The notes under the pieces: generated by a model
What the model saw: only the letters and a program-made list of their open reading frames with translations
Told to the model about the DNA's origin: nothing
The model's database searches: none
Translations under genes and position numbers: made by a program
Origin: a bacterium
GTDB taxonomy: Bacteria; Verrucomicrobiota; Kiritimatiellia; CAIKKV01; CAITUY01
Direction: 5' to 3'
Length of the DNA: 37,189 nt
Assembly: GCA_037143175.1 (NCBI GenBank)
Contig: JBAWZF010000027.1
Coordinates: 1 to 37,189 of the forward strand
Shown here: piece after piece, positions 1,751-6,056 of the stretch
Numbering within the stretch: position 1 is the first letter of the stretch
Layout: each line of letters opens with the position of its first letter

Positions 1751-1780
1751 TTGACAGCCGGTAGATTCCAGCATTACATT
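1751..1780 (+). promoter_or_regulatory. Predicted sigma70-type promoter for the CDF gene
   Basis: A perfect -35 box TTGACA (1751-1756) is followed, after 18 bp, by TACATT (1775-1780), which matches TATAAT at 4 of 6 positions. Transcription would begin near 1787. That gives a leader of about 125 nt before the CDF ATG at 1913 and places the whole structured leader inside the transcript. Confidence 0.6.
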
Positions 1781-1794
1781 CCCTTTTTTAACGA

Positions 1795-1884
1795 CCTCTT
1801 GAGAAACCGGATCAAGCGACCTGTGAGCAGGTGCGGCTGGGCCTGAACGGCAGTGGGACTTACACCCCGCGGGACTATGAAGTC
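1795..1884 (+). promoter_or_regulatory. Candidate NiCo (czcD)-type metal riboswitch in CDF leader
   Basis: The leader shows a series of elements in the order expected for the four-way-junction NiCo riboswitch. A hairpin (ACCTG/CAGGT, 1819-1832 region) is followed by GCGGCTGGGC, then a minimal GCC/GGC hairpin ending in CGGCA. Next is a GTGGG/CCCGC stem (about 1854-1870), followed directly by GGGAC (1871-1875). From memory, the family has GCAGCCGGGC, CGGCAAC and GGGAC in the corresponding junctions. The 3' half of the aptamer also forms the 5' arm of a terminator, as in a transcriptional OFF/ON switch. The weak point is that I could not find a convincing closing stem P1, and the first junction is not a clear match. 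The position ahead of a CDF metal exporter strongly suits this class. It could instead be an unrelated metal-responsive leader. Confidence 0.5.
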
Positions 1885-1898
1885 TTGCGGGGTCTTTT
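1864..1898 (+). terminator. Leader terminator/attenuator hairpin upstream of CDF start
   Basis: A 13-bp uninterrupted stem pairs 1864-1876 (ACCCCGCGGGACT) with 1881-1893 (AGTCTTGCGGGGT). It includes two G-U pairs and closes an ATGA loop; CTTTTG follows. It ends only about 10 nt before the Shine-Dalgarno AGGAGG (1903-1908). It is therefore placed to end transcription before the gene unless an upstream structure captures its 5' arm. Confidence 0.7.
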
Positions 1899-1912
1899 GT
1901 TCAGGAGGCATT

Positions 1913-2878
1913 ATGCAGTCAGGTTCCGCAGACCTACACAAGCGCAAGGCAGGAGTAGCCGCGCTTTCGATCCTTTCTAATGCCACTCTCGTGGTGCTTA
2001 AGCTGCTTGTCGGCTTACTGATAGGTTCCGTATCCGTTCTTTCCGAGGCTATTCATTCGGCCGTTGATCTTGTCGCCTCTGTGATCGCCTTCCTCTCTGT
2101 TCGCACTTCGGCGAAGCCTGCTGACGTGCGCCATCCCTTCGGACATGGAAAATACGAGAACCTCTCAGGAGCTATTGAGGCACTTCTCATCTTTCTTGCC
2201 GCCATCTGGATCATTTTCGAAGCTGTTCATAAACTGATTGCCCCCCAACCTCTTGAGAAGGCAGGCATCGGCGTGATCGTCATGTCGGTCTCGGCCATCA
2301 CCAACTGGTTGATTTCCCGACGACTCTTCAGAATTGGAAGGGAGACGGATTCCATCGCCCTGCAGGCGGACGCCTGGCATCTCCGAACCGATGTCTACAC
2401 CTCCCTTGGTGTCATGGCCGGACTAGGCATCATTTGGAGCGGATACTGGGTGGTTCCAACATGGAATCTCAACTGGGTGGATCCGGTGGCCGCCCTCTGT
2501 GTGGCTATTTTAATCCTGAAGGCCGCCTGGGATCTGACCGCCGAGTCAGTAAAGGATTTATTAGATGCCCGTCTTCCGGATGAGGAAGAAGCGTGGATTA
2601 TTAATTATATCAGAGAGTTGCGCCCTTTAGTCCAAGGCGTGCATGACCTCCGAACCCGTAAGGGGGGGGCCATGAGGTTCGTGGAATTTCACCTCATTGT
2701 TCCAGAATCCATGACGGTGGCCGAGGCTCATGCCATCAGCGATAAAATCGAGGAGGCCATCACCGCCCGATACCCCGCCACGCATGTGACCACTCACATC
2801 GAGCCTTGCCGCCAGCCTTGCCCTGAAACATGCCTTCCAGGATGTTTTTTGACAGAGGAGGAGAGAAAAGGAGTCTAG
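1913..2878 (+). CDS. Cation diffusion facilitator (CDF) divalent metal exporter
   Basis: A 321-residue inner-membrane transporter of the CDF family (FieF/CzcD/MamM type), which exports Zn, Fe, Mn, Co or Ni by proton antiport. It has the typical six helices. The helix-2 site reads EAIHSAVDL, with HPFGHGKYENLS after helix 3 region, and the helix-5 site ALQADAWHLRTDVYTS carries the HxxxD motif. The C-terminal cytoplasmic ferredoxin-like domain has VQGVHDLRTRKGG and ends at HIEPC. The ATG at 1913 is chosen because AGGAGG lies 4 nt upstream. An in-frame ATG at 1853 would fall inside the leader hairpin region. The tail carries CX3CX3CX3C (Cys at EPC, QPC, ETC, PGC), which may bind metal. The structured leader suggests metal-dependent control. 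The metal itself cannot be decided from sequence. Confidence 0.92.
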   Translation: MQSGSADLHKRKAGVAALSILSNATLVVLKLLVGLLIGSVSVLSEAIHSAVDLVASVIAFLSVRTSAKPADVRHPFGHGKYENLSGAIEALLIFLAAIWIIFEAVHKLIAPQPLEKAGIGVIVMSVSAITNWLISRRLFRIGRETDSIALQADAWHLRTDVYTSLGVMAGLGIIWSGYWVVPTWNLNWVDPVAALCVAILILKAAWDLTAESVKDLLDARLPDEEEAWIINYIRELRPLVQGVHDLRTRKGGAMRFVEFHLIVPESMTVAEAHAISDKIEEAITARYPATHVTTHIEPCRQPCPETCLPGCFLTEEERKGV

Positions 2879-2950
2879 AGTTGCGACCCCTAGGCCCAAA
2901 GTCCAAGACTCCAGGCCTCGATTTTCGTCCTTGGACTCGCGACTTTTTTT
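2879..2950 (+). terminator. Rho-independent terminator after CDF gene
   Basis: Starting one base past the stop codon are two nested stems. AGTTGCGA (2879-2886) pairs with TCGCGACT (2937-2944), and AGTCCAAG (2900-2907) pairs with CTTGGACT (2930-2937). The 3' arms abut, and a run of seven T (2944-2950) follows. The internal AAAGTCCAAGACTCC sequence may be another degenerate heptamer repeat. Confidence 0.75.
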
Positions 2951-3048: not shown

Positions 3049-3170
3049 ATGATCCTTGACCTCACCATCCCTGGCGGAATCGGCGGACAAAAAGTAATGT
3101 AGGCAATCTTATCCTTTGACCCCGGCGTAAGGGCCACAGCAGATATTGTGGTAATTTGGCACAGAAGGTA
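3049..3170 (+). pseudogene. Remnant of a response-regulator receiver domain
   Basis: From 3049 the frame reads MILDLTIPGGIGGQKVM, a stop (TAG, 3100-3102), then in the same frame AILSFDPGVRATADIVV. This lines up with LILDLTVPGGIGGREVLKEILVLDPNAKAIV in the receiver domain of the hybrid kinase at 6053-7768. The phospho-acceptor Asp context (LDL) and the following loop are recognisable. The N-terminal acidic pocket and the final Lys/beta5 segment are absent, and the frame upstream of 3049 is full of stops. It is too short to fold as a receiver. The likely origin is a decayed duplicate of the neighbouring kinase's receiver or an older two-component gene. Confidence 0.65.
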
Positions 3171-3173
3171 GAC

Positions 3174-6056
3174 GTGAAAAACACAAAAAGAAAATCAGGT
3201 AATACCGCCCCCGACTTCCCCATCGTCGGCATCGGGGCCTCCGCCGGGGGATTGGCGGCCTTCGAAGCCTTCTTTTCTGGCATGCCCGCCGACATGAGCC
3301 CCGACATGGCCTTTGTCCTCGTTCAGCATTTAGCCCCAGACCACAAAAGCATCCTCGCCGATCTTATCCAGCGCTACACCCACATGCAGGTCTGTGAAGT
3401 TGAGGATGGAATGGTGATTCAACCCAATCATGCCTATATCATTCCGCCTAATCACGATATGGCTTTTCTAAACGGAACCCTCCAATTGCTGGCACCCTCT
3501 GCGCCGCACGGGCAGCGTCTACCCATTGACTTTTTTTTTCGCTCTCTCGCTCAGGATCTGCACGAGCGGGCCATTTGCATCGTCCTTTCGGGGACTGGCA
3601 GCGACGGCACCCTCGGGGTGCGGGCGGTTAAAGGTGAAGGAGGCATGGTCATCGTCCAGACCCCTTCCTCCACAGAATACGACGGGATGCCTTGCAGTGC
3701 CATTGCCACCGGTCTGGTGGACTACGAACTTCCTCCGGCGGAAATGCCCGCAAAACTTATCGCCTATGTTGCCCATTCCTTCGGAAAGCCCTCGCGAGTC
3801 ATACCCCTCCCGGAACCTAGGGACGATAATGCGTTAAAAAAGATTTTCATTCTCCTGCGGAACAAAACCGGTCACGATTTTTCCCAGTACAAGCAGAGCA
3901 CCATTATCCGACGTATTGAGCGGCGCATGGCCGTCCAACAGATTGAAACCATTGACGAGTACGTCCAGTTTCTACAAATTAAACAGGCAGAAATGGAATC
4001 GCTGTTCCGGGACTTGTTAATTGGCGTGACCAGTTTCTTCCGGGATCCGGAGGCCTTCAAGGCTTTTGAAACACTCGTCGTCCCACAGCTCTTTGCCGAC
4101 AAGCCAGCTGGAAGCGTAATCCGTGTATGGTCACCCGGCTGTTCTACCGGCGAAGAAGCCTTTTCCATCGCGATCCTCTTGCAGGAACGCCTGGAGGTAC
4201 TGAAACAGAGTTACCGGGTTCAAATCTTTGCCACCGATATTGATAACAAGGCACTTGCTGTAGCCCGGAACGGACTCTACCCTGCCAGTATCACTGCCGA
4301 CATCACGCCGGAGCGACTGTCGCGATTTTTCGTGTCCGAGCCCGATGGTAACACCTACCGAATCCATAAGGGTATCCGTGATATGCTGATCATTTCTGAA
4401 CAGGATGTGATCAAGGACCCCCCTTTTTCCAAACTCGACCTTATCAGTTGCCGCAACCTTCTGATCTACATGGGCGGAGATCTGCAAAAGAAACTTATTC
4501 CGCTGTTCCACTATGCACTGAATCCCAGTGGTTTCCTGTTCCTGGGCACCTCGGAAACGGTGGGTGAGTCTGTTGATATTTTTACTCCCCTCGACGGCAA
4601 GGCTAAGATATATAAACGCAAAACCGATTTACACAATTCGCATCGACTCCTGACCCGTAGCTTACCAGTCATGGCGTCGGCCACCTTCCATCCAACTACA
4701 GGTAAAAAGTTTGGCAGCAGGAAATTCTCGCTGCGAGCGCTGACCGAACAGGCCTTGCTACATCAGGTCGCTGCAGCCGGTGCCCTCGTCAATGAGCAGG
4801 GCGATATCCTCTACCTCCATGGCCGCACCGGTCTCTATCTCGAACCCACCCCGGGCGAAACGGGGGTCAGTAATATCCTGAAGATGGCTCGTGAAGGCTT
4901 ACAGCGCGAATTGACTATCGCGCTCCACAAAGCCACATCTGGCAAACAGGTTGTGCATTGCCCCAACCTGCGCGTCAAAACCAATGGCCATTTTTCCACC
5001 GTCAACCTGACCATCCGCCCCGTATCCGGTGGCCCCGAAACCTCATCCGATGCCCCGCTCTATCTGATCAGCCTTGAAGAAATCATGCCGACCGCCACCC
5101 CTTCTCTCGAAGGGGCTGCGCCGAGCCAGAGCGATCAACCGGCCGTTGGCAGCGAACAGACAGGCTCCAGTGAATCAGTAATTATAACTGCCCTTAAACA
5201 GAAGCTGCAGGACAAAGAAGATTTTCTTCAAAGTGCCAATGAGGAGTTGGAAACCTCAAAAGAGGAGTTACAATCCATTAATGAAGAGTTAGCCACGGTT
5301 AACACTGAACTTCAACTCAAGGTGACCGAACTGACACGAGCCAACAATGACATGAGTAACCTGCTGGCCGGTACCGGTATCGCCACCATCTTTGTGGATC
5401 ATGACTTGCACATCCTTCGCTTCACGCCAGCTACCACTAAGATTATCAACCTGATCCAAACCGATGTAGGTCGACCCGTTGGCCATATCGTCTCAAATCT
5501 GGTTGACTACAACCGGCTTCCGGCAGACACACAGGCCGTACTGGATAACCTGACCCCTAAAGATGTCGAGGTGCAATCCCTTGAAGGAAGCTGGTACTCG
5601 ATACGTATCCGCCCTTACCGTACCAAGGACAACGTGATCGAAGGGGCGGTCATCACTTTTGTAGATATTACGGCGACAAAAGATGCGGAACGAAACGCCG
5701 AAAGCTTTCGCCGCCTGGCGGCGCTAACACTTGATTCAAATGACGCCATCATCATTCAAGGCTTAACGGGTAAGATTTTGTCCTGGAATCCTCGCGCAAC
5801 GAGCATGTATGGCTGGAGCGAGTCCGAGGGGTTGACAATGAATATTCAAGACTTGATTCCTGAAAATCAGCGGCATGCGGCGTTATCTGTACTCAAGGAT
5901 CTCAGCCATTCAAAAATTATCCAACCCTATCGCAGCCAACGTATCTCCAAAACCGGACGGATCCTTAACGTCATGCTGACCGCCACCGCATTAGTCAATG
6001 GTTCCGGTCAAGCCTATGCCATTGCCACAACTGAACGGGAGGTCAATACAGAATGA
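3174..6056 (+). CDS. CheB-CheR fusion with coiled coil and two PAS domains
   Basis: A 960-residue soluble signalling protein. Residues ~15-200 form a CheB methylesterase domain with the catalytic triad present: Ser23 in GIGASAGG, His52 in QHLAP and Asp144 in GTGSDG. Residues ~225-480 form a CheR methyltransferase domain, with an N-terminal all-alpha part, the SAM site VWSPGCSTGEEAFS (~318-331) and ISCRNLLIYM. A long coiled coil (~670-725, NEELETSKEELQSINEELA) leads into two PAS domains (~726-840 and ~846-955). No kinase domain follows, and there is no receiver before CheB. This layout is common in two-component systems outside chemotaxis. I chose GTG 3174, which has AGAAGG 5 nt upstream; TTG 3156 in the same frame is the alternative. 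The stop overlaps the next start (ATGA), so the downstream kinase is probably its partner. Confidence 0.9.
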   Translation: MKNTKRKSGNTAPDFPIVGIGASAGGLAAFEAFFSGMPADMSPDMAFVLVQHLAPDHKSILADLIQRYTHMQVCEVEDGMVIQPNHAYIIPPNHDMAFLNGTLQLLAPSAPHGQRLPIDFFFRSLAQDLHERAICIVLSGTGSDGTLGVRAVKGEGGMVIVQTPSSTEYDGMPCSAIATGLVDYELPPAEMPAKLIAYVAHSFGKPSRVIPLPEPRDDNALKKIFILLRNKTGHDFSQYKQSTIIRRIERRMAVQQIETIDEYVQFLQIKQAEMESLFRDLLIGVTSFFRDPEAFKAFETLVVPQLFADKPAGSVIRVWSPGCSTGEEAFSIAILLQERLEVLKQSYRVQIFATDIDNKALAVARNGLYPASITADITPERLSRFFVSEPDGNTYRIHKGIRDMLIISEQDVIKDPPFSKLDLISCRNLLIYMGGDLQKKLIPLFHYALNPSGFLFLGTSETVGESVDIFTPLDGKAKIYKRKTDLHNSHRLLTRSLPVMASATFHPTTGKKFGSRKFSLRALTEQALLHQVAAAGALVNEQGDILYLHGRTGLYLEPTPGETGVSNILKMAREGLQRELTIALHKATSGKQVVHCPNLRVKTNGHFSTVNLTIRPVSGGPETSSDAPLYLISLEEIMPTATPSLEGAAPSQSDQPAVGSEQTGSSESVIITALKQKLQDKEDFLQSANEELETSKEELQSINEELATVNTELQLKVTELTRANNDMSNLLAGTGIATIFVDHDLHILRFTPATTKIINLIQTDVGRPVGHIVSNLVDYNRLPADTQAVLDNLTPKDVEVQSLEGSWYSIRIRPYRTKDNVIEGAVITFVDITATKDAERNAESFRRLAALTLDSNDAIIIQGLTGKILSWNPRATSMYGWSESEGLTMNIQDLIPENQRHAALSVLKDLSHSKIIQPYRSQRISKTGRILNVMLTATALVNGSGQAYAIATTEREVNTE

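Follow-up and report, generated by a model that had tools for sequence, protein, structure and literature searches.

The NiCo (czcD) class of riboswitches is said to have been described by Furukawa et al. in 2015. The yybP-ykoY Mn2+ riboswitch is likewise a metal riboswitch, organized around a four-way junction, that precedes exporters. In the NiCo class metal binding prevents transcription termination (PMC7917058; PMC7689651), and in the 4RUM aptamer G45-G47, G87 and G88 coordinate or support the metals (PMC7689651). The ligand of the class is disputed, Co/Ni being set against Fe(II) and others (PMC7689651; PMC9971707); the preliminary description of the DNA studied here also called it debated.

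That DNA is a stretch of 37,189 nucleotides, referred to as a whole as the window. We conclude that the leader of a CDF exporter gene within it is a divergent NiCo riboswitch, functional-looking and ordinary in kind, that belongs to the known class. With high confidence we hold that this NiCo (czcD) riboswitch controls the CDF metal exporter via transcription attenuation. The element had been placed at 1751-1908; all of its parts are present there, but the aptamer proper is shorter. The features are as follows:

1751-1780, plus strand: sigma-70-like promoter, TTGACA-18 nt-TACATT (consensus match only, 10 of 12 positions)
1798-1879, plus strand: NiCo (czcD) riboswitch aptamer, four-helix junction (RF02683 match and covariation)
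1809-1813, plus strand: 5' strand of P1 with J1/2 (GGAUC), partner 1873-1876 (model alignment, folding)
1815-1838, plus strand: P2 hairpin with a two-step stem, 1815-1817/1836-1838 and 1819-1822/1829-1832 (covariation, folding)
1839-1841, plus strand: GGG at the P2/P3 junction (invariant in 8 leaders)
1841-1851, plus strand: P3 hairpin, GCC/GGC (covariation, folding)
1853-1870, plus strand: P4 hairpin, GUGGG/CCCGC, with its 3' arm common to the terminator (covariation, folding)
1871-1875, plus strand: GGGAC, conserved and also within the terminator 5' arm (invariant in 8 leaders)
1864-1899, plus strand: intrinsic terminator, 13-pair hairpin 1864-1893 and U-rich tail (-23.0 kcal/mol)
1903-1908, plus strand: Shine-Dalgarno AGGAGG (sequence)
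1913-2878, plus strand: CDF cation efflux transporter, FieF/YiiP-like, ATG at 1913 (Pfam, TIGR01297, structure match)

The promoter reported upstream of the leader is there, with TTGACA at 1751-1756 and TACATT at 1775-1780 (shuffles expect 0.2), and a sister locus in a related genome (L002) retains both hexamers at identical spacing despite a diverged spacer. The three segments described as unpaired were also all located: GCGGCTGGGC at 1833-1842, CGGCA at 1848-1852 and GGGAC at 1871-1875. Separately, the leader's 5' end and the Shine-Dalgarno region could form 9 base pairs with each other (CCUCUUGAG, 1796-1804, and UUCAGGAGG, 1900-1908); 8 of the 9 pairs are kept in L002 and the pairing is not kept in another relative, L109. 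This could possibly be a second, translational layer of control, or chance. On the minus strand an EntS/MFS_3-like MFS transporter gene (325-1677) adjoins the exporter gene and is divergent from it.

The NiCo model of Rfam, RF02683, matches 1798-1879 over its full length (model positions 1-96) with 31.7 bits and an E-value of 4.2e-5 in cmscan. When the whole 3.3-Mb genome was searched, the same site had an E-value of 4.7e-5 and the next-best match reached 16.9 bits (E 0.86). The curated gathering cut-off for RF02683 is 37 bits, which is an annotation threshold and not a structural feature, and a scan of the whole window with Rfam at that threshold returned tRNA only and no NiCo. The aptamer scores below the cut-off and routine annotation therefore overlooks the riboswitch. 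The covariance-model check suggested in the preliminary description thus gave a match that is significant and full-length, though sub-threshold.

Related leaders precede homologous CDF genes in other genomes of the window's class, namely G215 (L109, 69% CDF identity), G124 (L107, 59%) and G047 (L003, 56%). In G004 (L002) the RNA precedes a truncated CDF with 89% identity over its first 82 residues and a frame that is broken beyond. At this locus (G004:C11, reverse strand) an intact riboswitch is followed by 82 CDF codons, after which homology is lost; either the gene itself is broken or the assembly has a join at this place. Scanning genome contigs with the CDF protein added leaders from an actinobacterium (L038), Candidatus Zipacnadia (L045) and an uncultured member of the Lentisphaerae (L050). 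L050 and L045 score 47.0 and 40.6 bits against RF02683, both above 37, and a model made from three close sequences retrieves independent leaders immediately ahead of homologous CDF genes (L109, 52.6 bits; L050, 36.4; L045, 33.9). These data bear on the idea that the window holds a new metal riboswitch class that merely resembles NiCo, which the sub-threshold Rfam score and the P1 mismatch would favor. We regard this as extremely improbable; the alignment is full-length and includes all consensus helices except the outer part of P1, and leaders of the same CDF family exceed the NiCo cut-off and are retrieved by the window's own model. The preliminary description had left the choice between a divergent NiCo member and a related undescribed class, and it is the former that is borne out, by the full-length Rfam match, covariation, homologous CDF leaders above the cut-off and overlapping terminators. 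The latter finds no support, and the weak P1 is to be seen as local degeneration because P1 pairing is normal in other leaders from this CDF family.

For covariation we used eight leaders (the window, L002, L003, L107, L109, L038, L045 and L050), aligned to a model from three of them. In this alignment, which was fitted to the structure and so biases the counts, 90% of cells are paired, compared with 33-42% in slid controls, and double-sided changes are found at 12 of 20 pairs, which none of 500 shuffles equalled. Helices P2, P3 and P4 have 92-98% of their cells paired and double-sided changes in each, the figure for P1 being 72.5%; RNAalifold, run on the same alignment, recovered P2-P4 by itself, counting 9 covarying pairs, but did not predict P1. 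Covariation of the stems in homologous leaders, a check set beforehand, was accordingly seen for P2, P3 and P4 (n=8). The GGG at 1839-1841 and the first two G residues of GGGAC (1871-1872) are invariant in all eight leaders and, with numbering taken from the Rfam alignment, would be equivalent to G45-G47 and G87/G88 of 4RUM, respectively. Between the window and its sister L002 the aptamer is identical at 73 of 77 positions (95%), the first 246 coding bases at 186 (76%) and the region upstream of the promoter at 27 of 51 (53%); in this comparison the leader RNA is under tighter conservation than protein-coding DNA.

The closing stem deserves separate consideration. It had been cautioned that P1 fits poorly, and indeed 3 of the 5 model pairs are possible in the window (C1813-G1873, G1810-C1875 and G1809-U1876, one of them G-U), with 2-3 of 5 forming in its near relatives. 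The first two of these pairs are unvarying in the eight leaders and hence uninformative on covariation, and the outer P1 pairs are disrupted in five of the eight, the window included. A mismatch of the first junction, raised in the same caution, does not hold, as GAUCA aligns with GAgCA of the model and is kept in relatives. At the base of P2, the window, L002 and L109 have A-U, L038, L045 and L050 have G-C, and L107 and L003 have A.C. A longer alternative closing helix was also noticed by eye (UGAGA near 1801-1805 with UCUUG of the terminator 3' arm; GAGAC/GUCUC in L109), but we make no claim for it, since its pairing in the window is weak and neither L107 nor L003 has an evident counterpart.

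The gene downstream encodes a CDF protein by Pfam (PF01545, 2.2e-51; PF16916, 3.2e-25) and by TIGR01297, which it matches above cut-off. Its closest solved structures are FieF/YiiP (2qfi, FieF, 8.5e-51), and its metal-site residues are by alignment H48, D52, H156 and D160 (HxxxD/HxxxD, an HD/HD pattern); those of FieF are D45/D49/H153/D157. The protein also carries a Cys-rich C-terminal tail, EPC-x3-C-x3-C-x3-C (residues 299-311, window 2807-2848), which is found across the CDF subfamily whether the riboswitch is present or absent and is a possible extra metal site. After the CDF stop there is a long imperfect hairpin followed by T7 (2877-2946, plus strand) that is probably the terminator of the gene. 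Further on, a short remnant on the plus strand (3049-3099; MILDLTIPGGIGGQKVM and a stop) resembles part of a response-regulator receiver domain and lies just 5' of a CheB-CheR-PAS hybrid gene (3156-6056).

Taken with the weak P1, the FieF-like character of the exporter raises the possibility of a NiCo sub-variant that has lost or replaced its closing helix and whose metal threshold or specificity has shifted, for example towards Fe(II) or Zn(II). P1 is disrupted in the window, L002, L107 and L109 but complete in L003 (UUAG/CUAA), and at the P2 base all five have CAAGC in place of CAGGC. However, no metal-site guanine and no other helix is altered, P1 of the Rfam model is likewise short and weak, the HD/HD residues of the transporter indicate no single metal, and about five such sequences are present in this analysis. 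We consider it unlikely that the near-absent P1 and the altered P2 base set a different threshold or specificity in the window and closely related leaders. If they do, the sub-variant would be a natural comparison set for the debate over Co/Ni versus Fe(II) as ligand.

We favor control of the ordinary NiCo kind, acting through the terminator. The claim that the 3' part of the fold overlaps a 13-bp terminator hairpin was confirmed; the pairs of 1864-1893 are perfect, the hairpin (-23.0 kcal/mol) is followed by CTTTTG and it lies upstream of the Shine-Dalgarno. The segment 1864-1876, which is the terminator 5' arm, encompasses GGGAC together with the 3' arm of P4 and the 3' strand of P1; since it belongs to both structures, aptamer and terminator are mutually exclusive. 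When the growing transcript was folded by energy, P3 and P4 were present by 1871 and the terminator was dominant by approximately 1890-1895; once the terminator is able to form, forcing P2-P4 costs about 6 kcal/mol. Against control of this kind stand the sub-threshold score, the incomplete P1 and the A-U base of P2, and also metal-free folding, which prefers an alternative CCGG/CUGG pairing over P1 and the P2 base by about 4-6 kcal/mol, a price that the ligand would therefore have to pay. In seven of the eight leaders a terminator hairpin lies on the P4 3' arm and/or GGGAC, the exception being L050; this layout is the one that PMC7917058 and PMC7689651 give for the class. A hairpin this strong by itself could be a plain constitutive terminator or attenuator, or a chance hairpin, with no ligand sensing involved. 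This we judge to be highly improbable, given that (i) distantly related lineages share covarying helices and unvarying junction guanines, (ii) the terminator nearly always overlaps the same aptamer strand and (iii) a genome-wide E-value of 4.7e-5 together with a location at the start of a CDF gene is not to be expected of a chance match.

Our working model for the NiCo riboswitch is as follows. Transcription would start near 1787. In the absence of metal, 1881-1893 would capture 1864-1876 (the P4 3' arm and GGGAC) to give the 13-bp terminator, and transcription would halt at the U tract ahead of the CDF gene. When a transition metal ion is abundant it would be bound by the junction guanines at 1839-1841 and 1871-1872 and P1-P4 would be stabilized; this would withhold the terminator 5' arm, allow read-through into the exporter gene and so permit the exporter to pump metal out. 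The model builds on observed features, namely the sequence match, the covarying helices, the conserved metal-site guanines, the overlap of aptamer and terminator and the recurrence of this overlap in relatives; from these we infer metal binding and the ON-with-metal direction as most likely, and Co/Ni, Fe(II) or another metal may be the ligand.

The NiCo element is rare in the window's class, as the window's own model gives matches with E-values of 0.01 or below in 4 of 346 genomes, G047 being a fifth and weaker case. Many other CDF homologues among those scanned are without a NiCo leader, and leader-bearing genes are scattered over the CDF tree, where 7 changes compare with a mean of 7.4 after shuffling, for which reason we claim neither a single origin nor a history of transfer. 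Most weak NiCo matches in 58 relatives (L004-L026) have no CDF homologue downstream and look like chance. By eye, the leader of a Megasphaera CDF gene (L058, approximately 1840-1915) which is not among the eight, contains a NiCo-like aptamer whose P2 is compact and which a 15-bp terminator overlaps; it was missed by both covariance models used.

The window leader leaves the understanding of the NiCo class unchanged. It widens the range of a recognized metal riboswitch to include lineages in which it is hidden by the Rfam cut-off, and adds divergent natural sequences, with a weak P1 and an A-U P2 base, ahead of FieF-like exporters; such leaders could help settle which metal the class senses. 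With regard to known systems, the window gave no Rfam match to yybP-ykoY and its conserved segments, unlike those of that riboswitch, are of the NiCo type. The leaders L050 and L045 share with the window the same aptamer and the same CDF family (53-55% protein identity) but differ in having a better conserved P1 and CAGGC and, in L050, no evident terminator. Compared with NiCo/czcD itself (RF02683, 4RUM), the window differs in that P1 is cut to 2-3 pairs, the P2 loop is short, the P2 base is A-U (CAAGC...GCU) in place of G-C and the host belongs to a Verrucomicrobia-related class, whereas it shares the match to the full model, helices P2, P3 and P4, the GGG and GGGAC junction segments, the position ahead of a CDF exporter and a terminator that uses the P4/GGGAC strand.
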